From Liolophura sinensis (lineage: Eukaryota; Mollusca; Polyplacophora; Chitonida; Chitonidae): 64,000 nucleotides of DNA. The position numbers and the translations under genes were made by a program. Of this stretch, positions 1-28,800 are shown piece by piece (within the stretch, counting starts at the first letter, position 1; every line of letters starts with the position of its first letter). The notes beneath the pieces are model-generated. The model was not told the DNA's origin and did no database searches. It saw only the letters and a list, made by a program, of their open reading frames with translations. Location of the stretch: assembly GCF_032854445.1 (NCBI RefSeq), contig NC_088300.1, positions 65,758,984 to 65,822,983 on the forward strand, given 5' to 3'.

Positions 1-485
1 GGCCTCCATGATTGTCAGCTCCATCCTCTTCCCTCACATCCCCACCATCATGTTCGTCCTACATCTGGCCTGTGAGGTGAATGGCCTCCATGATTGTCAG
101 CTCCATCCTCTTCCCTCACATCCCCACCATCATGTTTTGTCCTACATCTGGCCTGTGAGGTGAGTGGCCTCCATCAATGTCAGCTCCATCCTCTTCCCTC
201 ACATCTCCACCATCATGTTTGCCCTACATCTGGCCTGTGAGGTGAGTGGCCTCCATGATTGTCAGCTCCATCCTCTTCCCTCACATCCCCACCATCATGT
301 TCGTCCTACATCTGGCCTGTGAGGTGAGTGGCCTCCATGATTGTCAGCTCCATCCTCTTCCCTCACATCCCCACCATCATGTTTCGTCCTACATCTGGCC
401 TGTGAGGTGAGTGGCCTCCATCAATGTCAGCTCCATCCTCTTCCCTCACATCTCCACCATCATGTTTGTCCTTCATTATGCCTGT
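1..485 (+). repeat. ANAPC1: Tandem array of an ANAPC1 exon with its flanking splice sites (82-83 bp unit)
   Basis: Units begin at 1, 83, 166, 248, 330 and 413, with lengths 82, 83, 82, 82, 83 and a partial last unit. Each full unit reads as a putative acceptor (ATTGTCAG or AATGTCAG), a 58-59 nt exon-like part encoding LFPHIPTIMFVLHLACE, and a donor GAG|GTGAGT (GTGAAT in unit 1). This peptide is exactly what precedes EELKLN in APC1, so the units are copies of the exon before 834-904. Units 1-3 and 4-6 form a higher-order trimer: 3 and 6 share TCAATGTCAG, while 2 and 5 share a one-base insertion that shifts the frame. Units 1, 3 and 4 keep the frame and a donor. Unit 6 diverges near 475 before its donor. 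The array may continue left of the window. Confidence 0.9.
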
Positions 486-629
486 TCATTTGGGCGTGAC
501 ACTCCAGTTGAGCGGTGGCATACATGTCAATGTTGACACTACCATAATTTGCCCAAAATAACCGTCAAAGTGTTGTTGAACACCCAAGCAGGCCGCCAAG
601 CAAACCAATGCCTTTTAAACAGCAGATTT

Positions 630-775
630 GCAGCAACCTGCGAATAGTTGTGAGTTTCCCTCGGGCTCTGCTCATTTTCCTTTCACCATAATGTTGGCTG
701 CCATTGTTAACATGTAAAGTGAAATATTCTTGAGTACTGCGTAAAACACCTGTCAAATAAATAAATTAATAAAAT
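630..775 (+). repeat. SINE family A, 3' part
   Basis: Starts inside the element at GCAGCAACCTGCGAATAG and ends in the family tail GAAATATTCTTGAGTACTGC + GTAAAACACC followed by (AAAT)n. It lies between the exon array and exon 834-904. Confidence 0.8.
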
Positions 776-833
776 TTAACCAGCATGTTTTGCTTTTCAT
801 GCTTATGAAGAAATTGTGTTTTCGTCATTTAAG

Positions 834-3800
834 GAATTGAAACTGAACATTCTTTCCCATGATGACAGCAGACAACTAGCACATCTTCTCTACCAGCTGT
901 CAAGGTAAGCTATTGTCAGTGAAGCTTTTGTGATAAGAAGTTATAAAAACTAATTCATTTAGGGCAAGTGTTTAATAATGTGAGGAGCCTCCATGGCTCA
1001 GTTGGTTAGCGCGCTAGCGCAGCGTAATGACCCAGGAGTCTCTCACCAATGCAGTCGCTGTGAGGCTGTACAGGAGAAGGTGTTCCACCAAGCTGTGGAT
1101 GGCTGTGGGTTTCCCCCCGGGCTCTGCCCGGTTTCCACCCACCATAATGCTGGGCGCCATCGTATAAGTGAAATATTCTTGAGTGCGGCGTAAAACACCA
1201 ATCAATTAAATAAATAAATGATAATGTTTCTTCCCTTTGAAATGTTTCTTCCCTTTAATGCAAGAGCATTTATCTACCCTTAAAGCTTTCGGCTTATCTC
1301 AACTGTTGCTTCGGGTCCTGATTGCTTGTGTGTGCGAAAGAACGATGTGACTCAACTGGTGTAGTTATGGTCATTGTGCAGTTCAATCTTAAAGTCATCT
1401 GTTTGTCAGCGACCAGTTGAGTTCATGGGGTCATGCCTTAAACTCTAGTGTATGCCAAGCTTTACTGACTCATGCAAATACTTGTTCTTTACACTGCCAG
1501 TGACCTACAGCTAGCCCCTTACACAGATTACTACTGTAGGGATCTTCCAGCACTTTTTGATGCAGCGGATGAAATCACCCAAGTTAAAGATGGTAAAAAT
1601 GGACTGATACATCATACAAGTTTTTTTTTCAACTAATTTATTAAAAATAAGTTCATGTGTCATTCTTGAATAGAATAATTATAATAATTATGAAATATAC
1701 ATGTATGAAAATAATATTTAACGTACTGAGATGGTATATGTAGAATATTGTCAATTTTTGCCTTTTGACTTCGGTAAATGACCTTAAGTTTTGCACATGA
1801 GTTACTGTCGATCACTTTCGCACGATCTGAGTTGCCGGCAAGATGATAGAAGGGAGTGATGAGCCCCTCGCCCGTTTCATTGCCCTGCATGGCACTCGGC
1901 AGCTCTGGTTGCTAATCCTCGCCACATGGGGTCACGTCACTGACAGTGAGGTCTGCAGGTCTCCCAACTAGAAGTATGCCCATAAATTAAATGGAAGAAA
2001 ATATCAAGACAGGCGATGTCTATTACAAACCTTTAAATTCCATATACTGTCTCAAAGCATGGCCACGTCAAACAAGGAATGTACATGCACATTGTAAGCT
2101 GCAAGCCTCGAAACGGCGGTGAATTGGGTAACGTGGAAGTCACGTCGGAGCATTATCTTGTGAACGGTTGTCTATTCTAAACCCTCATTAAGCAAGAAAT
2201 ATTTGTACACATGTATTTCAGCTACAAATGGATTTCACCGAGAAATATCATCAACCTCCCATATAATTTGAATGGAGTAGGCCTATGTCATTCTGTGCAC
2301 ACATGAAGAGTTACCTTTCCTGTATTTTGAAACTGGGAACACAGAAAACATAATTTCCGAAAAATGCCACGACTACCTTTGACCCCTTTTCCATAGCACT
2401 GTGTGCCAGTTCAGCATATCAGGAGTCAGACAGGATTTGTCCGTGTGGTTGACATATTAAAAGTTCACACAACACTGACTGGCTTGCTATCAAAATATAA
2501 AGTGCATGTTTTGTGATTATCAGTATGCAAATATGCCCAGGTGTCACCGGCGACAGGTAACATTATTTTTTTGCCGTTTGTTGGCAAAAATCGTGCCATT
2601 AACGGGTTAAACAGACACGTGGAGAATTTGACCCTTGTGATTGTAAGTTGTCACTTTTAACGCAGCTTGAGTCATCATCTGCTGGTTATGTGCTAGGAAG
2701 AATTAGCTGGGTGATAGCTTTGTACATGAAGAGCTCTGCATACCTGTTATGGATATTTAGCATTTCACTTCACATGTGTAAAGGCACTGGGTGGTCACAG
2801 TGCACCTTTTGTGAAGTATGCCTTTATGTGCTAAATTCATTGTGATTGAAACTGAGGAAAACATAAACTGTTGGTGGCAGAAGAATAGACTAACTGCTCA
2901 GTGAAGCATGAGCTTGTTTATTACATTCAGGAACTGTCCACATCACTATCCCCTTGATCACTGCCGATGCTCTCCCACAGCACGCAGTCAGTAAGAACCA
3001 CTATCAACGCAATGAATCATGGGATACACTTTCCAAATCGTAGGGCAAAACTTAAGGTCATTTACCATAGTGACTTTTTAAACTGCTGCAAAACTGAGAG
3101 ACCACCCTAAAATACATTTATGTTGCTTGTGTTGTCAGAGCATCGGAAGAAGATGCAGTACCCCGGGTACTTAAGCTCAACTCCTCCCAGTGTGTGTGAG
3201 TGGGTGTATCAGAGCCTGAGGGGGGTAGACTGCCCTCCCATACCATACATATCTGATGTCTGTGTCAAGACCAAGACCATCATATCTGTGAGTAGATAGT
3301 GTACCTAGTTCAGGACTCTCAATCAGTGTGTAACTCATGCTGACTTCCTCTCCGGCCGTACGTGGAAAGGTCTGTCAGCAACCTGTGCATGGTTGTGGCT
3401 TTTCCCCGGGCTCTGTCAGGTTTTCTCCCACCATGCTGGCTGCTGTCGTATAAGTGAAATATTCTTGAGTAGAGCGTAAAACACCAATCAAATAAATCAA
3501 AATCAATCAATGTGTCTAATTCTGCTTAGCCTCGAGCTTGATCGCTGCATTAGATACATGAACATTTACCATCAAAGTGCAACTTAGATACATATTTTAT
3601 TATTGACAACTTATAATATATATAAGCATGGAGTACAATTTGTATACTGATTTCACTCATTGGCTTAGAGCATTCCTTGTGTCTTGCTTGACCTGGTCAC
3701 CAGGTCAGGAGCTGTCTGCCTTGAGCTGCCTAAGTGGGTTAGTTGTCATGTCTGGTGTCTTTTAGTGAGCAAAGTTCAGACTTGGACTGTCATTTAACAA

Positions 3801-6800
3801 TCCGTTAAGATGTCTTGCTTGTTTTGACTTATTTGAACACTGACTAGGGCTCTTGATACATGTATGCAACCAGTTGTTCGTTAACTTTGGGTCTTGGTAG
3901 CATGATGGGTGTTCTTGAAGTACACATCGTCATGAAATGACAAAAGTAATGCTGATGACATTTTAAAAAACTTAAGTAAGCAAACAAGCGATCAGGATAG
4001 GTTTACTTACAGATTGAATCAAAGATGTGAACATCATACTTGCATGAAAAACACTTCTTGAGATTTGATAGGTACGTGTCAAAGGTTGTTGGTGTACTCT
4101 GGTTTTCTTCATGCATGAAACTGACACTCATCATACTGTGTGTAATATTCTTGTGTACTTGTGTTCAAAGCCAATCAGTCAATCAAACCAAATTCTGAAA
4201 ATTTTAATCAGTTTGTCTTTTTCAGGTGTACAGTTTGCTGTTAAATGAAGACCTTATCATTCCCCATGCTATTGAGAAGTCCCTGAAGAGAGTAGTCCCA
4301 CCAGGTAGGATATATATATATATATATACTCCAGTAATTTATTCATACATGAAGATTGTTTGGTTTATCCAGGTAATTTTTGGGTGTCTTAAGGTGCTGT
4401 GGTTTATGTGTATGTTTACTCTGGTAACTTATATATACATTGTATATGTACAGTACATGCACATGCTGTGGTGCTGTGGTTTATCTGTGATTAGAATGTT
4501 AAACTATATTAATGTTAAACACCAGTCAAGTGAATGAATATGTAAGACTAAGCATAATTGATATGGTATAACTGATATTTGTAGAACAATATTAGTGTGA
4601 GGCATGTAACTGTTTCAGGTCATAGAGCTGGCCCATCATCCTCAGATGTGTCTCTATCCAGGAGCTACAATGTCAGCCCTCTAACCTCAGTGTCTGAGCG
4701 GATTGTACTCTTCATGACGGAGTTAGGTGGGTGACTAGAATTCACTGTTGTACAAATGGTTAATATCACGCAGATGTGAAAAAATGATACCCTAATTCAT
4801 CAACCTTTTCAGCTGCCAATACGACCAATATTATGGGGTGTAGAGAAATAGTTTGCGCAATTTTATGAAATTTGCATTCTTATTTACATAAAATAAGATC
4901 CAGTTGGAGAATTGGACCTTCAAACCTGAGTTAAGTCATGATTAAAACTATTAAAAAGACTTTAAAATCAGGAATCGTGGTACATCTTAGATTAATGCTC
5001 AGCATAAGGGAATAGGCCAAGGACTTCAAATATGTTGATTTTAGACCCCGGGATTAAGTGGTAAAATTCATTTAAATACAGAATACTGGAGTTAAAAAAA
5101 AAGTCAATTCTGTGTTTTTCTGGTACAAATACTCATATTTTTGGATGAAAACTGAATTGCATTCAAACTTATATGCATAGAGTTGAGCGGTTGACTTTGA
5201 TCGTCAATGGCTGCATCCGTGACAAACTGAAGTGGTCAAGTGTGTGATGGCTGACATAGGTTGAGTAAATAGACTCAAGCCGTGTTGCACAAACCACCAT
5301 CACAAAAGTCTGTCACTGTCCTGATTTGAGACCGAGAATCCTTTTATTTATTTATTTATTTATTTGATTGGTGATGTGCGCCGTACTGAGGAATATTTCA
5401 CTTGCATGACGGCGGGGAGCATTATGATGGGAGGAAACCGGGCAGAGCCGGTGAATCTTACTGAATTTACTCCATGAATGAATTCACTATTCATGATTTA
5501 AATTAGTTTAATGATGGAAGGGTGTATATCTGTGGGCCAAGTAATCATTGTGACAAATTGAAACTGATTCATGTAGATCTTAACTACATGTAAGAGGCTC
5601 ATAATGGAAGATTTTTGCTTCAAACCTTCGTCAAATAATCCCCAAGAGTAGTCCCTTTTATGTTGGCATCAACCATTATGTTCTTCCCAGCCTGAAAGGC
5701 CACTCGAGCCCCTTGTTTTGACGGCAGAAATGTGTTGTTTTTGACCTCACATATTAACCAAAAAGGATAGTCAGGTGTAAGGAAAGTCAGGTGCAAGTTA
5801 GGTGTAAGGATAATCTTTCCCTTGTCAAAAGTGTGTCAGGGATCATGTGATTGGTGTGATTTCTCAAGCTGTCATTGACAGTCACCAACCCAGTAACAGC
5901 ATTGAAACTTTGGTGGATAGAAAATGTATCTTTTATAATTACTTGTGTCATATTCTTCTGTTCTTCACTATTGATGACAGGCCTAACATCTGTCGATCTG
6001 GAGTCTCTGCCTGTTGGCCTGGCCCTCCCCTTCAGAGAGGCTATGTTTGTGTGTAGACAGAACCCACCAGCTGACTGGCCCGAGAAAGCTCACAGTCTTA
6101 TTGGTATGCTCATAACCCTGTATTTGTGATGTACATTTAACCATATATTCTTGGTCAGATTTTTTCCCACAAAAAGAGTAATGTAATGTTACTGTAAAGT
6201 TTGGTTTCTTCCGCTGAAAAACATGACAGCTGTTGTATAAATGAAAAATTACTGATTTGTACAGAAACTACAGAGTTGAACGTAAATCATCCTGATTTCA
6301 TGAGTAGAATAAATGTGTATTCATGAACTCATTCAAGCATGAGATTGTTCTTTTTTTCTTTTTGAAGGAATTTTGCTTGCTATTTTCATCATATATTTTT
6401 GTTCTTTTTTTAGAAAAATGGTCTTTATTTAACTTAGGAGTGCTAAAACGATCAAATAATGAGGCACTGTCCTTGGTTTCATCCCAGTGTCTGTGTCATC
6501 ACAGTAATTGGGTTTGATGTGAATTCTGATGTAATACCCTTTTTCTCCAGGTCGTCAGGACTTGGCCATGTTGACCTCTTTTTCCAAAGGTTATTTGGAG
6601 GAACAGGATGTGAGAGGGAGAGGGACCACAAAAAAAAGTTCAGCCAACCAAGAAGGAGCAGATGAAGAAGAGGATGATTTTGAACTGGTTGACCAAGAGG
6701 TGACATGCAAATATGTTTATTTCTCCATTTTCATAGGTAAATCAAGTTTGTGAAAGAAGTGTGTCTCCTACATTACTGCTGTATTTCTTTTCCCCATTAT

Positions 6801-7824
6801 TAATGAATAAATGTAGTACAGGAGCCCTCTACAAAGGGAGGTAAATCTTGTGATAGAACATCCATCGTCTATCTAAGGGATGACAGGACAATACATTTGT
6901 TCCATTTGTTATAGATATTACGTTTGCGGTTCAGCGAGGATCTGCGGGTACAAGAAGTCAAGCGAATGCTGCAGTCTTCCAAACCAGCGAAGATAACTTT
7001 GGTACAGAGACCTGAAGTCAGGTTGGTCACTTAAACAGACAATATTTTTGTTTTTAGGATCTGATACAGTCTGTTTTTTTTTTTTTCGTTTATTTCCTGT
7101 TGAGAAACTAATGAAGAATAAGTGTCAACTTGTGAAGATTTTTTATATGGCACAGTAATCTGGCTTGAATTCAGCACTCCCAAGTTCGGCTGCATCTTAA
7201 AGTCTGGACATTTAGTTGACAAAATACATTTCTTTACTCAGGTTGCTCTGGTTTTCCATATTTGTAAATCTAATCAGCCAGGTAATAAATAAAACTCTTT
7301 TAGGATGCATACATGCATGTGTTATAGAAATCCCTAGGGCTGTTCCAATCCTTCTGTGTTTTTTTCTTTTCAGTGATCATGATTTCATAGAAGAACAGGA
7401 GAGATATTTATACTCTGTCTGCATTAGAACCATGGCTCTTCCACTGGGCAGGTAAGTCCATTGTCTAGACAGACATTCTTGTTTATGTCTTTATTGTAAA
7501 GAAAATCATATTTGAATGCACCAAAATCTCAGATCCCACAAACCTGTTTTATGTATAGTCAGCAGTGAAGATTACATACAGGCCTACAGGAATTTCTTGA
7601 ATAGGTTTGTTTATGGCAAGATTTCATCTGTCCGGCTCATTTTTTGTAAATGGTCAACGGGAGATAAGGGTCCATTTCCATGTGTGCTTCCATGTTGATA
7701 TTGTCCGTGCTACTGAATTGTATTTACTTTCCAGGGGTATGTTCACATTGTGTACTCATGTGTCTCTGCCTACTGAAGCCTTACCAATACCCAAGTTATG
7801 CCTGACTGGAAGAGCTCCACCAAG
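834..7824 (+). CDS. ANAPC1: ANAPC1 exon block: middle helical region before the PC repeats (10 exons)
   Basis: Exons 834-904 to 7735-7824 correspond to the middle region of APC1. Visible landmarks are ELKLN at the start of the first exon, TPPSVCEWV in the 3139 exon, SVSERIVLFM in the 4619 exon, LESLPVGLALPFREAM in the 5981 exon, an acidic loop (EGADEEEDDFELVD) in the 6551 exon, FSEDLRVQEVKRML in the 6915 exon, SDHDFIEEQE and RTMALPLGR in the 7374 exon, and PIPKLCLTGRAPPR in the 7735 exon. The acidic loop sits where human APC1 has a similar EEEDD stretch. Introns are short to medium (0.2-1.5 kb) and hold SINE copies. Confidence 0.93.
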
Positions 7825-10800
7825 GTAGATCACTCTGACATCATTGTGCTTGTTTTTTTTTTTTCATTATGGTAAAGAAATAAAGGTTTTACAATTGATC
7901 CATAATATATTTTGAGAAAGACTTGTGGTGTCATACAGTCATGAAAGGCTGGTATTATTATTTTATATTATGCTTGTTTTTGTTTATTTTTGTGGGAAGT
8001 TAAATGATATGTGTTGCACATTGTATTGGTTTATATTGCAGGAACACATCTGTTGATCTTACCCATATTGATACACCTCCTAATATGGCTGCCTGGCCTC
8101 ATTTCCATAATGGAGTCGCTGCAGGGCTGAGGCTGGCAAATACTTCTCAGGTGTGTATCTCCAACACCTTTGTTAATAGTATACCTATACCTAATTCGTC
8201 TAATTTTTAGGACAGATACCAGTGGTGCTGAAAGCAATTAAAGAATTATATTTCTCCACCAGTTTTCCGGAAAAGTAAAGATATGACTGTTGTTCATTAG
8301 ATGGAATAAGCATGTGAAAGAATATGTAATTTTCCTGCTACAATTACATCACATTGGCTAAAAAGAGCAGCCATCTAGAAGAATTAGGTTACTTGTGATG
8401 TATTTTACCTGTAGTTTGACCTGTAAAAGTGCATCAATATGATTACAAAATAACTCTTCAGATGGCGTATGATGTGGATGAATCGGTCAGAATCAACTTG
8501 AAAAAAGCTTAACTTTAGGTGAAATAGAGTAATTCAGCCAAAGCCTTACTCTAGTGGTAGCTGATTGATTGTTGACTAATGTGGTCGCCTTATGATCAAA
8601 TCTAGTTTGTGCTAGTTCAGCCATGTTTAATTAGTAAGGTTTTCCAGGCAGCTGGCGATCAGCTGTGGTTTCTCTGGGTTCTGTCTGCAACCTGACAATC
8701 CTCACACAAATGAAATATTCTTGTTTATAATCAGAAAGCCCCAATGAAATACGTAAATAGATGTGAATAGCAGGAAGATGTGAGTAGCATGAAGTTCACC
8801 TTATGTTTTGAACAGTTCTGATTAGTTTTGTGATCAATTTTTTCTCACTCTCACCAGTTGCACCTGTTCACTTTATATCTCTTCGTCTATTCTATGTTCT
8901 GTTTTACCTTAAGATAGTTTCTTCTCTTAAGAATGTAGTCATTACTTAACAATGACATTGTTCGTCATAGAGAGCGCTTGATTAATGGGCATGGGCATAA
9001 AAATTGAAAACAGCTTAGACATTTCATTTTTTTTACGAATATTAGGTGAACTCTCCCTGGATCATCTATAACAAACCAAAGGGCTCAGAACTGACCAATG
9101 AATATGCTGGTTTTCTGATGGCCTTGGGACTGAATGGTCATCTGGTCAATCTAGATATTCTGAACCTCCATGATTCCCTGGCAAAGGTATGTTCTGTCTT
9201 CACCAGAGAAGCCTTTCCATATGTTTTTCTCTGCATTTGGCATGTGTTTTTAGGATGCTATGAAGCGTGGTGTTGTCATAGGAACAACTAGTAACACACA
9301 AATTGATTTCGTACATACGGTAATCAAATTGACATTTTGTGTGGAATTGTAAGGTCATAACATTAATGCAGGTAATTATAAAAAATACCAAATTCCAGTT
9401 CTTTTCTTTTCTCTTGGATTTATTTTGGTGAAGAGTTGTCTGTTTTTTCCTCTGAACAGGGACATGAAATGACTACCATAGGCTTACTACTAGGTCTTTC
9501 TGCAGCTAAGTAAGTACTAATTTGAAAGGATTAACTTAAACTGACCTACCATGAAGTTTCATCCATGTTTTGCTTCCAGTAACCCTGTAACAAAGTGGGA
9601 ACAGCTGTTTGTAATTAGCGTATATAATTAAACATTAATATAACGTATTTTCAGCACAGTTTAAGTATTAAATTTCCCTCATGATATTTCACGTTTGTTG
9701 TATGTTACATGGTTATGTATAGGAAAGTGGGAAAGTAATACAGTATGTGCAGTTGATGGGCGTGTGGTGTAATCTTATCATTCATCAAGTGCCTGTGTTG
9801 GCTCATGTGGTGTAAGTGTGATGTTAACATTCATCAAGGGCATGTGTTGGCTCATGTGGTGTAAGTGTGGTGTAAGCGTGATGTTAACATTCATCAAGTG
9901 CCTGTGTTGGCTCATGTGGTGTAAGTGTGGTGTAAGTGTGATGTTAACATTCATCCAGGGCCTGTGTTGGCTCATGTGGTGTAAGTATGGTGTAAGTGTG
10001 GCGTTAACATTCATCAAGGGCCTGTGTTGGCTCATGTGGTGTAAGTGTGATGTTAACATTCATCCAGGGCCTGTGTTGGCTCAAGTGGTGTAAGTATGGT
10101 GTAAGTGTGATGTTAACATTCATCCAGGGCCTGTGTTGGCTCATGTGGTGTAAGTGTGGTGTTAACATTCATCAAGGGCCTGTGTTGGCTCATGTGGTGT
10201 GGTGTAAGTGTGGCATTAACATTCATCCAGGGCCTGTGTTGGCTCATGTGGTGTAAGTGTGGTGTAAGCGTGACGTTAACATTCATCCAGGGCCTGTGTT
10301 GGCTCATGTGGTGTAAGTGTGGTGTAAGTGTGATGTTAACATTCATCCAGGGCCTTTGTTGGCTCATGTGGTGTAAGTATGGTGTAAGTGTGGCGTTAAC
10401 ATTCATCAAGGGCCTGTGTTGGTAAGTGTGGTGTAAGTGTGGCGTTAACATTCATCAAGGGCCTGTGTTGGCTCATGTGGTGTAAGTGTGGTGTAAGTGT
10501 GATGTTAACATTCATCAAGTGCCTGTGTTGGCTCATGTGGTGTAAGTGTGGCGTTAACATTCATCCAGGGCCTGTGTTGGCTCATGTGGTGTAAGTGTGG
10601 TGTAAGTGTGGCATTAACATTCATCAAGTGCCTGTGTTGGCTCATGTGGTGTAAGTGTGGTGTAAGTGTGATGTTAACATTCATCAAGGGCCTGTGTTGG
10701 CTCATGTGGTGTAAGTGTGGTGTAAGCGTGACGTTAACATTTATCCAGGGCCTGTGTTGGTTCATGTGGTGTAAGTGTGGTGTAAGCGTGACGTTAACAT

Positions 10801-13800
10801 TCATCCAGGGCCTGTGTTGGCTCATGTGGTGTAAGTGTGGCGTTAACATTCATCAAGGGCCTGTGTTGGCTCATGTGGTGTAAGTGTGGTGTAAGCGTGA
10901 CGTTAACATTCATCCAGGGCCTGTGTTGGCTCATGTGGTGTAAGTGTGGTGTAAGTGTGATGTTAACATTCATCCAGGGCCTGTGTTGGCTCATGTGGTG
11001 TAAGTATGGTGTAAGTGTGGCGTTAACATTCATCAAGGGCCTGTGTTGGTAAGTGTGGTGTAAGTGTGGCGTTAACATTCATCAAGGGCCTGTGTTGGCT
11101 CATGTGGTGTAAGTGTGGTGTAAGTGTGGTGTAAGTGTGGCATTAACATTCATCAAGTGCCTGTGTTGGCTCATGTGGTGTAAGTGTGGTGTAAGCGTGA
11201 CGTTAACATTCATCCAGGGCCTGTGTTGGTAAGTGTGGTGTAAGTGTGGTGTAAGTGTGATGTTAACATTCATCAAGTGCCTGTGTTGGCTCATGTGGTG
11301 TAAGTGTGGTGTAAGTGTGATGTTAACATTCATCCAGGGCCTGTGTTGGCTCATGTGGTGTTAGTATGGTGTAAGTGTGGCGTTAACATTCATCAAGGGC
11401 CTGTGTTGGCTCATGTGGTGTAAGTGTGGTGTAAGTGTGATGTTAACATTCATCAAGGGCACGTGTTGGCTCATGTGGTGTAAGTGTGGTGTAAGTGAGA
11501 TGTTAACATTCATCAAGTGCCTGTGTTGGCTCATGTGGTGTAAGTGTGGCGTTAACATTCATCCAGGGCCTGTGTTGGCTCATGTGGTGTAAGTGTGGTG
11601 TAAGTGTGGCATTAACATTCATCAAGTGCCTGTGTTGGCTCATGTGGTGTAAGTGTGGTGTAAGTGTGGCATTAACATTCATCAAGTGCCTGTGTTGGCT
11701 CATGTGGTGTAAGTGTGGTGTAAGTGTGATGTTAACATTCATCAAGGGCCTGTGTTGGCTCATGTGGTGTAAGTGTGGTGTAAGCGTGACGTTAACATTT
11801 ATCCAGGGCCTGTGTTGGTTCATGTGGTGTAAGTGTGGTGTAAGCGTGACGTTAACATTCATCAAGGGCCTGTGTTGGCTCATGTGGTGTAAGTGTGGCG
11901 TTAACATTCATCAAGGGCCTGTGTTGGCTCATGTGGTGTAAGTATGGTGTAAGTGTGGCATTAACATTCATCAAGTGCCTGTGTTGGCTCATGTGTTGTA
12001 AGTGTGGTGTAAGTGTGATGTTAACATTCATCAAGGGCCTGTGTTGGCTCATGTGGTGTAAGTGTGGTGTAAGTGTGACGTTAACATTCATCCAGGGCCT
12101 GTGTTGGCTCATGTGGTGTAAGTATGGTGTAAGCGTGATGTTAACATTCATCCAGGGCCTGTGTTGGCTCATGTGGTGTAAGTGTGGTGTTAACATTCAT
12201 CAAGGGCCTGTGTTGGCTCATGTGGTGTAAGTGTGGTGTAAGTGTGGCATTAACATTCATCCAGGGCCTGTGTTGGCTCATGTGGTGTAAGTGTGGTGTA
12301 AGCGTGACGTTAACATTCATCCAGGGCCTGTGTTGGCTCATGGTGTAAGTGTGGTGTTAACATTCATCCAGGGCCTGTGTTGGCTCATGTGGTGTAAGTG
12401 TGGTGTAAGTGTGATGTTAACATTCATCCAGGGCCTGTGTTGGCTCATGTGGTGTAAGTGTGGCATTAACATTCATCCAGGGCCTGTGTTGGCTCATGTG
12501 GTGTAAGTGTGGTGTAAGTGTGACGTTAACATTCATCCAGGGCCTGTGTTAGCTCATGTGGTGTAAGTGTGGTGTAAGCATGATGTTAACATTCATCCAG
12601 GGCCTGTGTTGGCTCATGTGGTGTAAGTGTGGTGTAAGTGTGGTGTAATGTTACCATTCATCTAGGTGTAAGTCCCAGGTCTCTGACCAATGAAGTTGAG
12701 TGTTCATATCCAGCTCTTGCAGGTTCGGCTATAGCCATAAATCAGAAGGACTGAAGGTCTAGTTTATTCCTGGTACTTTGGCATGACCACCTTTCCTGCA
12801 AAGTTCTTAAGTACGGCGTCAAACAACATTAAAAAACATAAGTGAATTTATCTGTTCTCCCTGTCTGTCTCCAGGCGTGGTACAATGGATAACAGTGTCA
12901 CCAGGTGGCTGAGTGTCCACTTGTCTGCCCTCCTACCCCCTACGTCTACAGAGCTCAATGTGCCCCATAATGTGCAGGTGGCCGCTATCCTTGGGGTGGG
13001 GCTTGTGTACCAGGGGACGGCACACAGGCACATGGCGGAAGTTCTTCTATCAGAGATTGGTATGTTATTTTGGTGTCAATCAATCTGAGGTTGTGTTTCA
13101 GTTAGTGTTGTTGATTTGCACTTGACCATCAATGGCTCAGTGGTATGAAGGCTTCATTTTGCTGGAAATCACAGGCTGTATTTTGCTTGAAATCTTGTCA
13201 CCCTGTCATGTTAGGCCTCTGATTCTAATTCTTGCTGGCTAGGCTACAGCTTTATTTTCATGAGGTTTTCATTTGCTGTGATGTCCTTTTATCCTGCGTT
13301 CAGGTTTTTTCCACCCACGTATCCGATCACCTTCAAGCACAATAATGTTGTGTAGAAAATGAAGGACATACAAGCATGTAGATGTATTCCTTCTTTAACA
13401 GTTAAAGCAAAATGTTATCAGAATTTGATCAAGTATAAAAATAAGTTCCACAGGTAAGTCTCAAATGTTATGTTTATTAAATGTTATTCACCCCTTAGGC
13501 AGGACATTATAAAGGTACCTTACTTACATGTAACTTCAAACGTGCAGTGCCTGTTTATGACATCATCATTGCCTAATTTGCAAATGGAATACACAACTTT
13601 TTGAATACTCAACACTGAACCATATACACCTTGGGTCTTCAGTAAGACACCTGTCAAGTGTGAAGTCTGTCAGATTAATGGTTGTGAAACTTTAGAACAA
13701 GATATACATGAACAAGTACATGTATCATCACAGGTTGTGAATCTAATTTCTCACATGTCTCTGTCCCTCTACAGGCCGCCCCCCAGGCCCAGAAATGGAG

Positions 13801-16800: not shown

Positions 16801-19800
16801 AAGTCTGTTATCTGTTTTTGGCTCTCCATTTCGAAGTGAAGCGAGGTACTGTGAGGATGTAGAAAAGTCGATATGCAGTTAGACTTTTTCGTTAAGCCTA
16901 AGTATTGGATAGGTCGTGTACAGTGAAGTCTATCCTTTCACTTACAATGTAGTTGCAGTTTGTTGTTGTCTTCAAGGCTTGGTTACACTGTCCATCAACC
17001 TGTAAACTGGGCGGTTAGACTGTGTCCAACAAGATGCACACACATGAAGGAATATTTCTGTTCTTTCTATTCCTGTTAAAAAGTAGAAGAGTTTGACCTG
17101 CATGTCGATGTATCTTAGGTAATTCTTCTTATAGGCTTTAAGTCGAGGCTTGGTGATGTGGGACAGCATTCAGCCATCATCAGAGTGGATACGCAGTCAC
17201 ATTCCAGAGGTAAGATAGTCACATTCCGAAAGTAAATTAGTCGAATTGTGAGTGAAGGAAAAAACTTAATCACATTACAAGAAGTAAGCTAGTTCCCACG
17301 GAGCTCATGTTTGCTTTCTCAAGGGTCAGAAAAATAAATCACATTCACACAGCATGATGTTGGTCCTGACAAAAGTTAATGTGCATTACAGAGGTAAAGT
17401 AGTCACATTTCTGTGGAAAGTCGGTCACCTTCCGGGGGCAACTTACCAACTGCTGGGGTTAAGTTAGTCGCCTTCTGCAGGCAAGTTAGTCAAAATAAAG
17501 AGGTGAGTGAGTCACTTTCTGGAGATATGTTAGTCACCCTCTGGCAGTAAATTTCTCACCCTCTGTTAATAAGTTACTCACCATCTGAAGGTAAGGTAGT
17601 CACCCTTTGGAGGTACATATCAGTTTTAGTCACATTTGTTTGATAAGAAACTTCTTGAGGCAAGTTTTTCATTTTCCAGAGATGATGTACAGGTAGTCCA
17701 CTTCATGATGTAAATTTTTATTGGCCTCCCTGGCATAAGTTAGTCCTCAGAAAGGTTTGAACACAGTTATGCTGTAAGGCTCACAGTACTTATAAAGAGC
17801 CTACATTCCAATATTAGAGTGTCGAGTTGTCCTGGCTATTTTAACAATCCACAATCTCTTGGACAGGGTTGAAGATTAAGCTTGTACAAGGAAGACATCA
17901 GTGAATATGTCAGTGAAACAGCAGTGAAATAAATGAATAAAATTTGTATATTGGGTGTATTAGATTGTGGAGAAACATTCCATATACACTGGTGATTCCC
18001 TATATTTTATTTCCTCCAGATTGTCAAGAAGTATGCATTCAGGAAGACGGAGGTCCCAGAGGATTCTGATGTGGAGATTGACTTTGAAACAATGAGGTTT
18101 GTTCAACTGGTCTTAGGTGTCCTTTAACATATCTCAGCCAACCAGATTAACCATTTCTGGAGATTTATGCCCTCATAGCAAGACAAAATCATCAGTATTG
18201 ATTTTTCTCTAGCCCAAAGCTAAGCTGGACGTCCCTACTGTAACGCCCATCTTCGCTCTTACCTTCTACGTGGACAATTTCACTGAAAAAAACAAAACAG
18301 TTCAAACTCTACCTTAATTTTTCTATCCACCGATTCCTTAAAACGGCGGAAATGTAATGTGTGAAATCCAGCATTGGTAAACCATCTTTCCACAGTAATC
18401 CAGCTGTTCAGACTTTTGAATCTGCGAACTCAAACCAACGTCTGCTATGTTTAGAATTCAACTTTGGGCAGAGTGATTGGCTGCAAAAATTTTATGCTAC
18501 AAAACATTCTCTTTAAGAATCACATGCAGAAATGTAAACAGAATGTCTGGTGGGATATGATTTTCAAGGCCCACATATAAAATGGTTTCATACAAAGTTT
18601 GAAAATGCTCTTTAGTTTCTCTAATATACTTGTGTACAAATTGAAGTTTATTCTTCCATATGTGTTCAGACATTGATTAATAGGATAGCTGGTTGTAATG
18701 ATATGTGTTGGACATGGTGGATTTCTGCATGTATGAAAAGCTATATGGGCTTGTCAATATATACATTCTTCAACTACATGTACTTTAATTCTGTATTCAC
18801 AAATAATTATGGCCATATGGATGAATAAGAATGGAGAAGCTGGTGAGTCAAAAGTGCATTTAAAGTTGAGTTTGCCTTAAATGTAGTACTAAAATCTTAA
18901 TAAAAAGCAAATGGCTGCGGACCATAGTTAATATAGTCTTAATCTCTCAAAATTCACTTCAGAAGAGATATATATGATCTATATAGGATAGTCTTAATGC
19001 AATATTTGACAAGCAATCTGCTTGTTGTAGATTCACGTTTTATATATGCACACTGACGTGACATTTACTACGTCATTTGTGTATTTCAGTCAGGCATTCA
19101 GTTACATCACGTCCGGCGCTTGTATGGCGATGGGGCTCAAGTTTGCTGGGTCCTGTAATATGGCAGCCTTCTCTACTCTTGTGAGTACCTGACCAATTAA
19201 AGTACAGTAAGTTACCCAGAATTGTGATGGAATTTGTAACCAGTTAATCATACTGCTGTACTAAGTTGATAAAAAATCAGTACGTATAACATTAACTTGA
19301 TTTTTTTACCAATTTAAATTAATATTTCCTCTGCTTAAGGGTAAGCTATTGCCCAAAATGAACTTTAACTGATTTCATGATTTCCATTGGGGATATCCTA
19401 ATTTCGTGGTTATACTTGTGGTCGTGTTTATGTGTTATGTCTTGTGTGTGCACAGTGGAGTCTGAATAAAGCATTGTGTTTGACCCGTGCTAAGACTTCC
19501 TGGTTTAAACAAATCATTATGAAATTTGAATTGTATGTGTGTCTTATTAAAGATTGACTTTACGTTTCTCATGTTTCAGCGTGAATATTTGAACAAAGTC
19601 CTGTTGGTACAGCAGAATCCCTCCCTGAGCGATCAGGCGGACAAGACAACAGTGGAGAAGTGCATTGTGGTCATACTGCTCTCTGCTTCCATGGTCAGTA
19701 CATTGACAGAATGTTGGGTATAGATGGAATATATTTGCAGATAATTAAATGTCCTCTTATAAAAATTCAAATAGTACATAAGTGCATCTGAATTCTCAAA

Positions 19801-22800
19801 ACCTCCATTTTCTCTCACCATAATGTGGCCGATTTTAATAGTTTAAGTGAAATGTTCTTGAGTACGGCGTAAAACACCAATCAAATAAATAAATAAATCA
19901 AAACCCTCATTGCACAAAATGGCAACACAAATTGCAGTCCACAATGAAATGTCATAGATAGAAGTTAATCTATTGATCCTTGGATTATGAATTTTGTGGA
20001 TTCAACCTGCTTTCACTGTTTGTGTGGGCCTTGATGAGAAGACTTGGTCAGTGAACTTCTTGTGCAAATATGTTGACAAGCAAGTGTATATCCTCTAATA
20101 GCTAACAGGGTTAAAGTCATTAATGTTATTTTATTTCTTTTTTTTTTTTTGAGCTGTGCTTAACACATTACTGTATTCAAAAATTTGTCAGCGTTTAGTC
20201 CAAAGGATCAGGGAAACCAGTGACTATAGTAAAACACTGTCCTTTGATGTGACAAACCTCTTGACTTTAAGGTCATGCTGAACTTGTCTGAGCTTGGTTC
20301 TAATATGCAATCTCATTGGTCAAGACCAATCACTTCATCCAAATGATCCTTTAGAGGACTAGATGTCCATGACGTAGTTACTCATTTTGTCTGATTCTGA
20401 GAGTTCTGTCGATCTTTAATACATGTGTGCTTTTTTGAAATGTAGGATGATCTTACCAGCAAAATGTAAGTTTCAGCTCCAAAAGTAATGCTAGGGTCAA
20501 TCCTGGGTTGAGTCACACCTAAGACTTTAAAAGAGGAAGTTGTAACTTCCTCGCTTCGCGTTAGCATTAAGGGGAAAGTGTAACAACCGGTTGACCCGTA
20601 TCAGTATAATGGCTCAGACTGGGTGGCTCACTTGCATTCGGTAAGGCGTCTCAGTGAAGCAGCACTAGATAAAAGAGCAGTGGAAATCCGTCCTGCAACA
20701 GGGAGGCACATTACATGCACTCTAAGAATCCCTTCGTCATCATTTGACCGAAAAATTGTTGAGTACGACGTTAAACCCCAAGCACTCACTCACTCACTCC
20801 AGAAGTAATGTTTTATGACCTTAATTTGCCTATAAAAATGCTCTTTTTGGGGGTAAATCTTTAGGGCAAATACAGTATTTTTCATTGCAGGATAGCATTA
20901 TGTGTAGCATTGTTGTTGTCAGGTGATGGCAGGATCCGGTAACCTGGACCTGTTGAGGGTGTGTCGCATGTTGAGGAAGCGTGTGGGGCCCATGTACAAG
21001 TACACCATGTATGGCTTCCACATGGCAATTAGTATGTCTGTGGGTCTGCTCTTCCTGGGTGGGGGAAGGTGAGGAACAACTTATGATGTATATGGTGACT
21101 GTATACCAATTTTTTGCAGCTTTAGACAGAGTGTTAAATGCTTTACTCATCCTTCTGTGCATGTAAAGATACACCTGGAACAGGTCTTTGAATTTCAAGT
21201 ACTTTAATTTAGTTACAAGGTTTTCAAGACTTAAAAGTCCTTTAATAAGAGTTGTTTTTTTTAATGCCCTTAAAAGTATTTAATTTTTCAGCTTGAAATG
21301 TCATATTTTACCTTTGATTTGTTGTAAATGGATCAATTAATAAGCTACATTGTACAAAAAAATAATGTTGATGTTGATGTTGATAGTTAATAATTGACGT
21401 TTGTACCTAAACTGATCGGCGTGTGAAACTGCTAAAGGGGAAAAGCTTTAGGTCTTTGAAAGACCATGAAGACTATTTTGCTTCAGTTGCTGTAAAATAA
21501 TAAACAAAATTTTTGCCTTTATTTAAGGTCATTTATGATAATGTGGTTCATGTTCTTCATAATCTGCTTGTGATGGGTCAGCCAAAACTGACAGCAACAG
21601 CTTTGAGAGATAATCATAAATTACCCATCAGCCATACTGACCTATGTTCTTTGCTCAGCAATCACCCCTCCATTTCAGGTACACACTAAGCACCCGGCCT
21701 GAGGCAATTGCTCCCATGATCTGTGCGTTCTTCCCAAAGTTTCCTCTACATAGCAACGATAACAGGTCAGTTCTGCAGCCTTGTGCAAGACTAGTTGTCT
21801 CTTTCTAAACCAAAATCCTCAAAAGTACAAAACATTGAAGAAAATTTGGTTGGTTGAGTGATAAGTAGTATGCTCAGAGAAATTTTACAGTTTTGAGCCA
21901 TAAAGTACAAGGAGGTTTATTTGAGCAATTCTTCAAGGGTTGATCATTGAACAAAAGTAAAAAGAGTAAAACAGCTGTAACACCGTGAAAGTTAAATTTA
22001 AGTTGATTAAATTCTGCTGATGGAAGGATTATTTTTACATTTGCTGCATAAATTACAGTTTGTGTTTACTGTGGAAAAAGTCCCTCTCCATGTACCTGAG
22101 GCTGTAGTCCATGGTGTTTTCAAGGTAGAAAAGTAACATTTTTGCTGACCTGATTTTTCACCAGGTATCACCTGCAGGCGTTCCGTCACCTGTACGTGCT
22201 GTCAGCTGAACCCAGATTGATACTACCCAAGGATGTAGACAGTGGACTACCCTGCTATGTACCACTTCACATTAAGTTCAAAGTAAGCTGGTAATGATTT
22301 CAATCTGAGGCCATCAGTATAAATATGTTTGTTCAGTGTACCCAGACAGACACTTCCATATACCTGCTCTAATGTTCTTTTATTGGGATTTTGATGGATT
22401 TTTTTGTTTTCGTGTCAGTGTCACTTGATTTCTTTAAAATCTGTATTCATGAAGCAAAATATATGTGCTTGCAACAATACTAATTAAAATTCTGTTAATT
22501 CCAAAAATTTCATCAGGAGATCATTTTCCATTTGAAAATCAGAAATTACCAGCCTTGTTCACTCTATTTTGTTTGATTCATTTTTTCTGTGTTACTACAG
22601 GAATTAAATGTATGATTTTTCTGGTAATTAATTTTTATGGTGTTTATGAGAAGAAGAATATTGCATTTGATTTGGAAAGTATGCATTTGTCATCACAGGA
22701 TACAGAGTGGTACAAAGACATCTCCTTTAAAACCACAGCTCCCTGTTTGCTACCAGAATTGCATCTCTTAGAGGAGGTGAGGACCCCAATTAGAGCTTTG

Positions 22801-25800
22801 TATACTCCGATGAAATATCGTTTGCCTATATAATCAAATTTCAACAACACTTCCAGGAAAAAAGAACAGGCTTAAGCCTTTTCTTCATCAGAAACATAAT
22901 TAAAGTCTTTCCAGATGCCCTACCCTTTCACAGAATCACATGTACACGTAAGTGCAGTCACTGTCTCATGCTCCATATTGAATCACAACAGTGTCAAATC
23001 AGTTTTTTCTGGGTATTGTATTTCAAATTTGATGTCTTCATTTCTTTGCTTTTAAGAATGCATAGAATGCAATTCAAGAGCAGAATTCTCAACTGCGAAT
23101 TCTTCAAAGGCCAAAATATAAGTAAAAAGCCATTAGTGTGAAGTCATATTGCAATACTCTTATCAGTTGATTTGATCTATAAAATCTGTATCAGTCTTAT
23201 CTGTGAAAAAAAAAAGAATAAAAAAGTCCAGATATAAATTTTTATAACTCCAGTTTTTGAGTGATCTTTTTAACTCTGTATACGACATAGAGCACCAGTC
23301 AAATAAATATATAAATATTAACTTGGTCTTTCTCAGATCTTACCTGAAGGCATCTGATGGTGACAGATTTTTTCTTGTGATAACTTACAACTGAGTGATG
23401 CTTTCCTTCATTTACTAATAAATATTTTTACAACATTAAGACATATTCATTCTAAATTCTTTCCCTTGTGTTTTTATCAGGTGCAAATTTTAGGCCCCAG
23501 GTACTGGCCTGTTGTTTTCAGTGGGGAGAAAAGTTTCACCACATTGAGGTATTCCTGCAACATAAAGCTCTTTTTTTGTAAGCTGGGTGTCTTTGGCATG
23601 TAGTCAGGATTTTGATGTGGCCAACATAATGTGGAAAATGATGTTAAACCCAAACTGAACAAACAAACATGTCACATTTGAGTGTATGTGAACTGTCTGC
23701 ATACATACATGTTTGTGTAGTTAAATTGTTAGTCACATAGTGAAGTACTCTAAACAGACTGTATCTATGCTGTACATGTAAAGTATACTACATGAATAGT
23801 TTTGATTACCTAAATGTAAATATGTGTACGGTTCTCCGCCCACATTTCATACTGGTACCACTTCGTTTCAGCCACTCCTAAAACTCACTGCTGTCGTGTA
23901 AATGAAAATAGCTTGCATATGTAACATGCGAATGTATCAGTAAATGTATGTTGCTGGTGCCCAATATTTCAACCCATTGCTGTACGTGTATGTGACAGTA
24001 GTAAGATTGAGTGGATAATATGAACGTATTATTCATGACTAAGTAGTCTTGTCGCCAGTCAAATAACTACATATACCTCTGTTATTGTGTTCTCAGGCGG
24101 GTCTTAGCAGGGAATGGTACAGTGTATGTGAAACAGAGAGCTGGTCATCTCTCCTACTCTGAAGACCCTAAGGTAACTTCTGAACCTGTATCTCAGTACC
24201 CTCATCATCTTAACGCTCGGTTTGTGTTAGATTATCAGACAGTCAAGTAATATTCATAGTATTCACAGACAATCAGACAGACAATATTCATAGTATTAAC
24301 AGAAACAATCAGACATACAGTATTCATAGTATTCACAGAGACAATCAGACAGTCAAGTAATATTCATAGTATTCACAGACAATCAGACAGACAATATTCA
24401 TAGTATTAACAGAAACAATCAGACATACAATATTCATAGTATTCACAGAGACAATCAGACAGACAATATTCATAGTATTCACAGAGACAATCACAGACAA
24501 TATTCATAGTATTAACAGAAAGACTCAGACAGACAATATTCATAGTATTCACAGAGACACTCAGACAGACAATATTCATAGTATTCACAGAGACACTCAG
24601 ACAGACAATATTCATAGTATTCACAGAGACAATCAGACAGACAATATTCATAGTATTAACAGAAAGACTCAAACAGACAATATTCATAGTATTCACAGAG
24701 ACAATCAGACAGACAATATTCATAGTATTCATACACACTTGTGTATTAAAATCCTGTTTATAAAAGTTGTGTTTTGAAAATCATATATTGACTAAGTGTT
24801 CTTTGAAAAAGTCACAAAGTATGTAAATGAGTCGTGTTCTGTTTCAGGGCTATCGCAGCATGTTGGCAAAATCACTGACCAGTGATCAGTCCAGTCATGG
24901 TTCTGTTCGTGTAAGTAAATGCAGCATGTTGGCAAAATCACTGACCAGTGATCAGTCCAGTCATGGTTCTGTTTGTGTAAGTAAAGGCAGCATGTTGGCA
25001 AAATCACTGACCAGTGATCAGTCCAGTCATGGTTCTGTTTGTGTAAGTAAAGGCAGCATGTTGGCAAAATCACTGACCGGTGATCAGTCCAGTCATGGTT
25101 CTGTTTGTGTAAGTAAAGGCAGCATGTTGGCAAAATCACTGACCAGTGATCAGTCCAGTCATGGTTCTGTTTGTGTAAGTAAATGTGCGATTTCCTCCAA
25201 TCGTAGAATGCCCTCTTCATCTATTAAGCCGAGAAGAATATAGTATCACAGAGCCTTGATGTAACGTCCTAACTGTGTGGAGTGCATATCTGTCATGTAT
25301 AGGAAAGGTTTTCTGTCACTTGCCAAAGGAACTCTGGCGTCCTGTACCCTTCAAACTACCTGCAGTTGGATAAGTGTAAATTACTTGAGCATTTCATTTA
25401 TTAGCAGCAATTAACTAAGTAGTTAAATCTGTTACTGAAGCCAGATATTTCCTCCCCTGTCTGTACATACATGCATGTGTGATAATAGTAACACTGAGTG
25501 GATAAATAGCAAGCTGTGATAATAAAGAGCCACTCATTTTCTTCCAGCCTGATGTGATCAAGTCGTTTACCTCTGATGAGAATATACTGGCTTTCTCGCA
25601 CTATTTTACATCATCCACAAATAGCCAGGTGAGTTGAACAGAAATATTTGTGTCATGGGTTTATTACTATATGTACATGTATGTCCTCCACTATCATCTT
25701 CAGTGAAACCAGATAACCTAAGTCAGTTATATGGTGTGAACATACATGTAATACAACATTCGAAATATTCTTTAGTATGTTTCAATGTAAAGTATATTAA

Positions 25801-28800
25801 TGTTCTCAAATGCGGGGCAAGGCGTGACTCAGTGGTGTTACTCATAGCGGCTGACACCCGAGGCAGGGGTTCACTTCCAGCCTTGACTTGGAGAAATGTG
25901 CTTTCGTTGTTCGTGGGACCTTGGTGACAGTAAAACCATTCATGGGACGCACAGTCTTACATTTGTTGATGGCCACTTGAAGTCCTCCAGTGTGGCATGT
26001 ACATGTATCAGCTGTGTAGAGCCCACATGAGAAAGTTTGTCAGTAACTTACCAAAGGTTGATGGTTTATGCCAGATACTCTGGTATTCTCTGCTCAACAG
26101 GTTTTGAGTAGTGTGTTGACCGACAATGAAATATATGAGTAATTTTGTCAAAAGCTGATTTACAATTTTCTAATTAAAGGCTTATTTCAGTTGTATCCAT
26201 GAAGAATTATTTACTTAAATATATCCTGTTGTGACAGTGTTTAGGTGTTGGATTTAGATGGACAGTGTCACTGATGGACATCATATGTTGTGCAATGAGT
26301 GGAACGATTTCTGTGTAGATCATTTCTGTCTTGGTACAACTTACATGCACCTTCAGAAACTTAACAGTGGGATGCCTCTCATCATCTACGGTACATGTAG
26401 TTTGATAGAGTTTAGTATTGTTCACAACCATTCTTAGGTGGATTGCAGTGTGTAAGCAAGGCCAGAAATATTTAAAATTTTGCATAAAACTATATAAATG
26501 AGTGATTTAGTTGCCGAGTCCTTGTCTTTCCTCAGGAAGAGACTTTGGTGCTTCAGCTGTGTGGGGTGCTGTATGAATGTGTGACCAGAGAGAAACCAGA
26601 GGCACTTGGCACGCACATGGCCATAGACCAGGTGAGAACACACACATGGCCATACATCAGGTGACAACACACGCACATGGCCATAGACCAGGTGAGAACA
26701 CACATATGGCCATAGACCAGGTGAGAACACACACACATGGCCATAGACCAGGTGAGAACACACACACATGGCCATAGACCAGGTGAGAACACACACACAT
26801 GGCCATAGACCAGGTGAGAACACACACATGGCCATAGATCAGGTGACAACACACACATATGGCCATAGACCAGGTGACAACACACACATGGCCATAGACC
26901 AGGTGAGAACACACACATGGCCATAGATCAGGTGACAACACACACACATGGCCATAGATCCGGTGACAACACACACACATGGCCATAGATCCGGTGAGAA
27001 CACACACATGGCCATAGACCAGGTGAGAACACACACATGGCCATAGATCAGAAGACAACACATACATATGGCCTTAGATCAGGTGACAACACACACACAT
27101 GGCCATAGATCCGGTGAGAACACACACATGGCCATAGACCAGGTGAGAACACACACATGGCCATAGATCAGAAGACAATACATACATATGGCCTTAGATC
27201 AGGTGACAACACACACACATGGCCATAGATCCGGTGAGAACACACCCACATGGCCATAGAAAATAGATGGTAGGTGACCGTATATTGTGAAATTGGCAAA
27301 CTGCAGCATTTTGTACTTGTCATTCATATAAGCAATCCAAAGGACACAACACAATATGACCATCATAATAGAAAGAAACACTCTATCAACCGCTCACGTT
27401 TCTCTCTTTCGGACACTCTGGTTGTGTCCACTCACGAAACTGACTGCAGTCAGTACAATTTCGTCTAAGCACCAATATTAAAATCGAAAGGTCAAATGGG
27501 GGGTGTATTCTTGAGCTTCGAACATTAATGAAATATGGAAGCAAACCAGTGGTTTTACAGTGTATTTGCTTAAATGTAGTTTTTGTAATTTATGTAGATA
27601 GGCAGGTGCGGTGGCTGTCTGTATGCTAGAATTCAGTCATGTATTGTCCACTCTCTTACAGGCTGTCAGGCTGTCTGTGTGCCAGCCGTCCACAATGGCT
27701 CTCTGGCAACTGAAGCTCATTAACACATACTACAGCAGTAGCTACTCCAAAGCTGTGCTTGGCAAATCCACGGAGATTCCTCTCGTACAGGAGGAGTACT
27801 TGTATGGGCTGAAGAGTCGTCTGGACACAGTGCTGGATTCCTGGCAGTGTGGTAAGTACTGGCTCAGCTGTTCAGTTTATAAAGAGAACACCTTTGTCTG
27901 TTTCCCATCATTACCCAAGTTGTGTATTATGAGACTTGTTACTCCTGCATTACAAATGGCGATGCTTTGAAGGCTAGAATTTTTAGGTAGAAATCTAACC
28001 ATATTTCTGTAAGTAATTAGTGTAATTTATAATATAAATGCACCCTGTGCTTCAGCGCAGGTTAACTCTCTCAAAACCAATTTCTAAACAATAACAGAAG
28101 AGTAGCCACACTATCAAGTGTTAAAAACCAGTCAATTGGCAGATGGTCGAAGGTTTCTCCTGGGCTCTGCCTGGTGTCCTCTCACCGCTGTCGTATAAGT
28201 GAAATATTCAGTAGTATAACGTAAATCACCAATCAAGTAAATCCAACCCAGACATTAGAGCATGACTATAGGTTTATAGTAGGACTGTGCTATTAAATCA
28301 CTTTGAGATAGGGAGGCCTCCTTGGCTCAGTTGGTTTGCACTCTAGCACAGTGTATTGACCCATGAGCCTCTAACCAATGTGGTCACAGTGAGTTCAAGT
28401 CGAGCTTATGCTGGTGTTCTCTGCGGGCGTACGTGGGATGGTCTGGCAGCAACCTGCGGATGGTCATGGATTTCCCTCAGGCTGTGCCGGGTTTCCTCCC
28501 ACCATCATACTGGCCGCTGTCGTATAAGTGAAATATTCTTGAGTACGGCGTATGATACAATGTAGATATGTGTAAGGGTAGAATTCATGTGTGGACAATA
28601 TGTGAAGTACATTTATGAGTTTGAATTAAAAGTGGTTTTAAGGCCTGGGGAAGAGTTGTAGTTTCCATAAACCTGATGACAATTTCCTAAGTATGACATC
28701 AAACACCAATCAGATAAATAACAATGCATGTTAAGTAAATGTAACCTGCAAGACATGCAAAGGTTGGAGGTACTTCCCCAAATGTCTAGGAAAATGCTGA

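Follow-up and report, generated by a model that had tools for sequence, protein, structure and literature searches.

Minisatellites over exon borders in ANAPC1 and in a sample of other chiton exons, resembling the mirages of amphioxus

Four tandem arrays in a single chiton gene begin in coding sequence and run through a 5′ splice site into the following intron. A sequence-only reading took this to mean that the locus, or the genome, has a process that amplifies 5′ splice-site junctions. The question raised by the locus is whether such a process is required, or whether the arrays have a more general origin. The window is a stretch of 64,000 nucleotides (C6:65758984-65822983), and the assembly that was searched comprises 609,464,459 bases in 632 contigs. 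The gene name proposed earlier, ANAPC1, is borne out, since the joined exon translations match the APC1 chains of solved structures (phmmer E-values of 3.6e-109 and 9.4e-75). We take 5a31 and similar APC1 structures to be human. Exon borders were set from homology, reading frame and the AG and GT dinucleotides, providing 29 donors and 28 acceptors for analysis.

Junctions were scored by self-alignment, comparing 25 exonic plus 15 intronic bases with the next 380 bases of the intron. Tandem copies extend into the intron at four of the 29 placed 5′ splice sites, with scores of 30, 19, 36 and 35; the other 25 score 12 or less. The same assay detected no tandem copies at any of the 28 ANAPC1 3′ splice sites (scores of 13 or less). 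The maximum among 3380 shuffled controls was 16.5, where the controls came from sampled helicase and kinase exons (see below) and not from ANAPC1. The claim that four donors of this gene lie in tandem arrays therefore stands, while the accompanying description of arrays 1, 2 and 4 needs revision. Arrays 1, 3 and 4 were recovered by TRF at 1-476, 24855-25183 and 26610-27260, with periods of 82, 66 and 31 respectively. The repeat units of the four arrays are unrelated, which supports their independent origin.

Array 1 is represented in the window by its last 5.8 copies (1-476, forward strand; TRF and APC1 homology), its parent exon lying upstream. In a segment of 9,984 bases that takes in its upstream part, the array in full occupies L001:8167-9960 and has 21.8 copies of 82 bp. 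The unit combines the terminal ~76 nt of an ANAPC1 exon with GTGAGT. The genuine exon end, ..SINVGSILFPHIPAIMFALHLVYE|, is at L001:8243 (i.e. G000:C6:65757742), about 1.24 kb before base 1 of the window, and the array starts inside this longer exon. The unit had been described as a whole exon with both splice sites; this is incorrect, and the misreading arose because the window begins inside the array. The APC1 alignment runs through the parent exon into the next one (..HIPAIFFVLHLVYEELKLN.., E = 8.9e-18). APC1 of 6q6h has ..HIPAIFFVLHLVYEELKLN; the exon copy of array 1 has LVYE, and the copies in the window have LACE. The next exon (ELKLNILSHDD.., 834-904, forward strand, placed by homology and frame) ends AAG|GTAAGC and has no array in the junction assay. 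The copies of array 1 are 96.8% identical among themselves and 86.6-92.7% identical to the exon copy. GAG|GTGAGT is present at 18 of the 21 donor-like sites, including the true donor; as these are identical, the strength of the motif cannot identify the true donor, and the donors downstream are not weakened. The final copy lacks a donor.

Array 2 (17195-17700, forward strand) has a 22-bp unit and covers the end of an exon and its donor; it was identified by TRF and a junction score of 19. The exon (17135-17209, forward strand, by homology to APC1) contributes its last ~15 nt, which together with GTAAGAT seed the array. The array is very degenerate. At a score of 50 TRF finds three pieces (17195-17242, 17530-17587 and 17570-17615, scoring 57-67), and six sites match at least 7 of 9 donor positions, the true donor included. 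Array 4 (26610-27260, forward strand; TRF, junction score 35) is intermediate in degeneracy, with ~22 copies of units of about 30 bp, each made from 22 nt of exon plus the donor. Its exon (EETLVLQLCGVL..MAIDQ, 26536-26631, forward strand, by homology to APC1) ends CAG|GTGAGA. Two of the 22 copies read CAGAAGACA, with loss of the GT. The statement that every copy carries the donor GT fails for these two and for the last copy of array 1.

Array 3 (24855-25183, forward strand; TRF, junction score 36) is nearly perfect. Five copies of a 66-bp unit, 56 nt of exon and 10 nt of intron, follow from the exon at 24848-24910 (GYRSMLAKSLTSDQSSHGSVR, CGT|GTAAGT, forward strand, by homology to APC1). They are 96-98% identical to the exon copy, too uniform for exclusion of the border copy from homogenization to be judged. 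Each of the five copies adds 22 codons to a reading frame that remains open throughout the array and for a further 19 codons, so that splicing at a later donor would add repeats of 22 residues to the protein. This is what would be expected if the arrays were tandem-exon cassettes adding repeats to the protein. By contrast, the units of arrays 1 (82 bp) and 2 (22 bp) shift the frame, APC1 in the solved structures has no such insert, and the lengths of 14 donor-array units are 0, 1 and 2 modulo 3 in 6, 4 and 4 cases. We regard cassettes of this kind as very improbable.

It is equally hard to believe that the arrays have been created by collapse or expansion in assembly. Substitutions and indels distinguish the copies from one another, different sites have unrelated units, and exon copies are distinct from array copies. 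The available text of the genome report describes the Liolophura japonica assembly as built from PacBio HiFi reads with a coverage of 14x and a mean read length of 8.3 kb (PMC11068029); the coverage is low and would leave some room for error, but the mean read is longer than the arrays described here.

Large arrays also lie wholly within ANAPC1 introns, and these were absent from the earlier account (9806-12646, 24249-24731 and L001:7716-8006). The first (forward strand, by TRF and the exon map) has 49 copies of a 60-bp unit and includes no splice site. Its unit holds an 11-bp TGTGGTGTAAG sub-repeat containing GTAAG, and both strands of this 2.8 kb region have long open frames. The second (36 bp x 13.5, forward strand, TRF) begins 77 bp after the donor at 24172. 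These counter-examples are of the same kind as the arrays described within introns elsewhere (abalone TSSK1-like intron 3, earthworm metallothionein intron 1). They differ from the border arrays in including no splice site, and the available descriptions of the abalone and earthworm cases do not mention a border-spanning unit.

Arrays over donors recur in other genes. A deliberately donor-biased sample, not used for comparing donors with acceptors, comprised 28 distinct CAGGTAAGT/CAGGTGAGT arrays with their flanks (L026 being the same array as L002). Twelve of the 28 start at an apparent coding exon end, six of these with some support from homology. The matches are to GH31 glycosidase (L007, E = 3.5e-13), a SMAD-type MH2 exon (L014, 8.9e-11), SUFU (L020, 1.8e-9) and RNA polymerase III subunit RPC1 (L006, 9.8e-8, with no Pfam match), followed by fucosidase (L025, 3e-4, below the curated cut-off and with no NCBIfam match) and deoC (L008, 0.0027, below the curated cut-off, without a Pfam match or, at a threshold of 0.1, a PDB match). 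L004 has a weak match to polycystin-2 (0.041). No Pfam match was found for L009, L013, L018, L022 or L027, where the exon calls rest on ORF, AG and GT; nor was there a credible PDB match for L009 or an NCBIfam match for L027. L009 may be ARFGEF3 and L022 may be KATNIP. In the remaining 16 there is no clear exon or the 5′ edge was unseen, with L021, L029 and L030 as possible cases. In L021 (1-1151, in reverse-complement orientation) a possible exon with no Pfam or NCBIfam match has arrays on both sides, one of 112-bp units that covers the acceptor and one of ~49-60-bp units that runs from the donor. L011 (C2:108400-109560) and L012 (C2:175900-177050), about 68 kb apart, have a 40-bp donor-like unit in common and resemble each other upstream; they are probably a duplicated locus.

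The frequency of such arrays was estimated from 125 exons of three protein families (Helicase_C, Pkinase and Kinesin), all but 11 of which were picked before their sequence was known. Helicase and kinase exons were included if the match contained no stop and lay in an open frame of up to 250 aa. When this rule was set, 22 helicase loci of three kb had already been inspected together with their repeats (11 of the 22 fit it), but the remaining exons had not. The resulting set of 88 consists of those 11, the first 40 of 43 further fitting helicase matches, and 37 of 39 fitting kinase matches, two being left out that share a frame with another match. A script placed 82 of the 88 donors and all but one of the acceptors (87); no array edge lies close to the end of the six exons whose donor was left unplaced. 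The donor of L112 was corrected by eye to the real one downstream and was then counted. An assay match at a wrong donor in L161 was corrected by eye and not counted, and nor was the acceptor of L126, whose score of 14 is just below the 99.9% shuffle level (14.5). The kinesin exons (37 of 132 matches, in 12 blocks) were chosen because they lie close together, so that short introns are over-represented; here the open-frame limit was dropped, the donors of L174 and L177 were assigned by eye, and acceptors were assessed from TRF edges alone.

Arrays span the donor of 8 of the 88 helicase and kinase exons (L085, L091, L111, L112, L116, L123, L149 and L154) and the acceptor of two (L140 and L143). 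The corresponding numbers for the 37 kinesin exons are two (L174 and L177) and none. Over the whole sample there are 10 donor-spanning and 2 acceptor-spanning arrays in 125 exons, a difference with an uncorrected one-sided binomial p of 0.019 for events that were scored by eye and unblinded. Border-spanning arrays are not rare among the sampled chiton exons. In L085, for example, a DEAD-box exon ending ..NYDMPDDIENY|GTGAGT carries an array of 22 copies of 39 bp. In L104, L106 and L161 arrays begin 5-15 bp past the donor, and these were not counted as spanning it. A further helicase exon, ..NYDFPNSAVSYIHRI (L084, C10:1641401-1641559), has a donor-spanning 22-bp array of 26.6 copies, and was not counted since there is a stop within its match.

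The two acceptor arrays, each in a protein kinase, comprise the end of an intron and the start of an exon (L143:1-497; L140 158-475 in reverse-complement orientation). In L143 copies of TTTCAG|ATAGTTTCTGCAGTG lie before the true exon start, a mirror image of the donor arrays. The true border is the terminal copy, i.e. the first in donor arrays and the last in acceptor arrays.

The density of array edges around borders was calculated for merged TRF arrays at 116 donors and 124 acceptors, using score cut-offs of 60, 100 and 150; the cut-offs and zone widths were chosen by the analyst. In the last 101 nt of the exon there are 0.74, 0.66 and 0.66 5′ edges per kb at the three cut-offs. The first ~106 bp of the intron have 0.65, 0.49 and 0.49 edges per kb, and the deeper intron past the donor 0.24, 0.19 and 0.16. 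On the other side, the last ~106 bp of the intron have 0.68, 0.53 and 0.53, the region further upstream of the acceptor 0.24, 0.21 and 0.21, and the first 101 nt of the exon 0.15 throughout. In the sample, the density of edges up to ~110 bp from either exon border is therefore about three times that of deeper intron. Depending on the cut-off, uncorrected p values are 0.005-0.010 for exon end against deep intron, 0.025-0.061 for intron start, and 0.025-0.044 for the donor exon against the acceptor exon. Restricted to the 88 helicase and kinase exons, the comparison of exon end with deep intron has p = 0.0015-0.010 and that of donor with acceptor p = 0.076. The earlier argument that arrays begin at donors more often than chance allows is supported by the 5′ edges at exon ends (0.66-0.74 against 0.16-0.24 per kb in deep intron), but not as something peculiar to donors, the acceptor side of introns being dense too. 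Either births or survival of arrays are raised near both borders, with donors crossed freely and acceptors rarely.

These data bear on the alternative that minisatellites are born uniformly in an array-rich genome and the donor cases are chance overlaps picked out by a pattern-seeking reader. Many arrays have no splice site nearby. Of 82 points taken 290 bp past the donor, 12 are copied further downstream, which is no rarer than for donors themselves, although 8 of the 12 fall inside donor-spanning arrays that extend to this distance. Clusters of the donor motif are also not clearly enriched (see below). Uniform birth does not account for the excess of edges at exon ends (p = 0.005-0.010) and intron starts (p = 0.025-0.061) over deep intron in exons chosen by family, and we consider it unlikely.

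A process directed at donors, acting for example through a GTRAGT motif, U1 binding or co-transcriptional R-loops, would duplicate 5′ splice-site junctions specifically. It would be consistent with the excess of donor over acceptor arrays (10 against 2), with the exon-end density and with the arrays at 4 of 29 ANAPC1 donors. Threefold CAGGTAAGT arrays outnumber those of the reversed motif by 237 to 93, a ratio of 2.5, but single donor motifs already do so by 9837 to 4862, a ratio of 2.0. Among the first 100 places per motif, 27 of 133 CAGGTRAGT loci are clustered against 6 of 70 reversed when merged at 100 bp (p = 0.022), and 16 of 106 against 7 of 57 when merged at 600 bp (p = 0.41). Motif counts were accordingly rejected as proof of donor targeting, the single ratio being close to the triple ratio and the clustered share varying with the merging distance. 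In the 110 bp that precede acceptors arrays are about equally dense, and the arrays of L140 and L143 span the acceptor. Furthermore, the unit boundary is not fixed relative to the donor. In 14 arrays the junction lies between 0.08 and 0.94 of the way through the unit, compatible with a uniform distribution (KS p = 0.52), as expected of random duplications. A dedicated donor-copying process is unnecessary, given that arrays show no clear excess of the donor motif and the junction may be anywhere in the unit; we give it a small chance of being correct. The claim that this genome has such a process survives in a weak sense, as donor arrays in unrelated genes (RPC1, GH31 glycosidase, SMAD-type MH2, SUFU, helicases, kinases and kinesins) and in 10 of 125 sampled exons, and not as dedicated amplification of junctions.

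Arrays of this type have been described in amphioxus. The 'mirages' of its globin and Adh3 genes are tandem repeats over exon/intron borders, 5′ as well as 3′; according to the available text they are unstable in length, do not visibly disturb splicing and were proposed as a source of new introns (PMC3087553). Similar arrays are reported in PGBD5 and troponin C (PMC3902484). In the amphioxus genes (Adh3 and the globins BflGb6 and BflGb9) the arrays are minisatellite-like with units of 10-160 bp that hold the genuine border, and are homogenized internally to the exclusion of the border copy, as far as the accessible parts of these reports describe (PMC3087553, PMC3902484).

The chiton arrays have the sequence features of this kind. 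The unit contains the genuine border at four ANAPC1 donors, and at 10 donors and 2 acceptors of the 125 sampled exons. The functional border is terminal with the rest in the intron: APC1 homology places the exon at the 5′-most copy of array 1, and the acceptor arrays are mirrored. Both 5′ and 3′ borders are involved, the latter in L140 and L143. Homogenization without the border copy is seen in array 1 only (0.968 against 0.866-0.927). The amphioxus cases are single genes of a cephalochordate for which polymorphism and transcripts are known, whereas the chiton arrays are known here from the sequence of one assembly. The description of mirages is thereby extended to a mollusc and to many genes, with a frequency taken from a sample and a comparison of donors with acceptors. 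A full-text literature search, mostly of titles and the beginnings of abstracts and with subscription papers outside its scope, found no mirages in molluscs.

Our preferred explanation, to which we assign a probability of about two in three, is that these are mirage-type minisatellites that are born frequently near exon borders from a short segment straddling the border, and are then filtered by splicing. In the chiton, segments of about 20-250 bp appear to undergo tandem duplication frequently. Duplication over a 5′ splice site would be nearly harmless, since the donor next to the exon is preserved and splicing from it would make intron of every further copy; use of the first donor in the RNA is an assumption of this mechanism. 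The array could then grow and homogenize by unequal exchange or slippage, with the exon copy held by selection on the protein. Duplication over a 3′ splice site would add upstream AGs that should be favoured by first-AG scanning, so that most such arrays would be removed. Arrays would thus run through donors and stop at acceptors because duplications are tolerated at the former and selected against at the latter. On this proposal there are four arrays in ANAPC1 because the process is common, and not because the gene is special. Support comes from the recurrence of the arrays, the terminal position of the true border, the homogenization of array 1 and, in a sample, the enrichment near borders and the asymmetry between donors and acceptors; as a counterweight, the kinesin set alone gives 2 of 37 donors. 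Selection alone could not raise the exon-end density above that of deep intron, and as the observed density is 3-4-fold higher a border-related bias in birth has to be assumed in addition, which counts against the proposal.

If the sampled rate holds genome-wide, the chiton would provide many natural settings in which as many as ~20 nearly identical 5′ splice sites, all sharing one exonic flank, compete. Donor choice and the tandem-duplication route to intron gain would be testable without engineering, and mirages would not be peculiar to cephalochordates. In the potato RdRp gene an intron was gained by tandem duplication of a segment crossing an intron/exon border, as given in the available text (PMC4974935). 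That case, along with Rogers' AGGT model, ATP2A1 and fission yeast, is alike in that the duplicated segment carries splice signals (PMC4974935, in the part available), and differs in that a new intron was made, whereas the chiton duplicates lie in or beside an existing one. A bolder and rather doubtful extension would be that tandem duplication in chitons is directed at exon borders, leaving ladders of donors on several percent of introns, in which AG|GTRAGT copies might act as zero-length (recursive) splice sites and as raw material for intron lengthening or gain. Were this so, the 8% found in the sample would extrapolate to the order of ten thousand donor-ladder sites.

Other repeats are present in the window. 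On the reverse strand at 50049-50405 is a 79-bp array with the unit ..ATGATGGCAGAG|GTAAGATCC, containing a donor-like AG|GT, where no adjoining coding exon was recognised. A degenerate 25-bp array (TGAAACATTGTCCACAAGGTCATGG) extends over 1.1 kb outside ANAPC1 (57486-58608). Finally, an open reading frame at 63058-63800 (..GIPVGTNCAPLLADLYLF..) is reverse-transcriptase-like, and may be Penelope-like.
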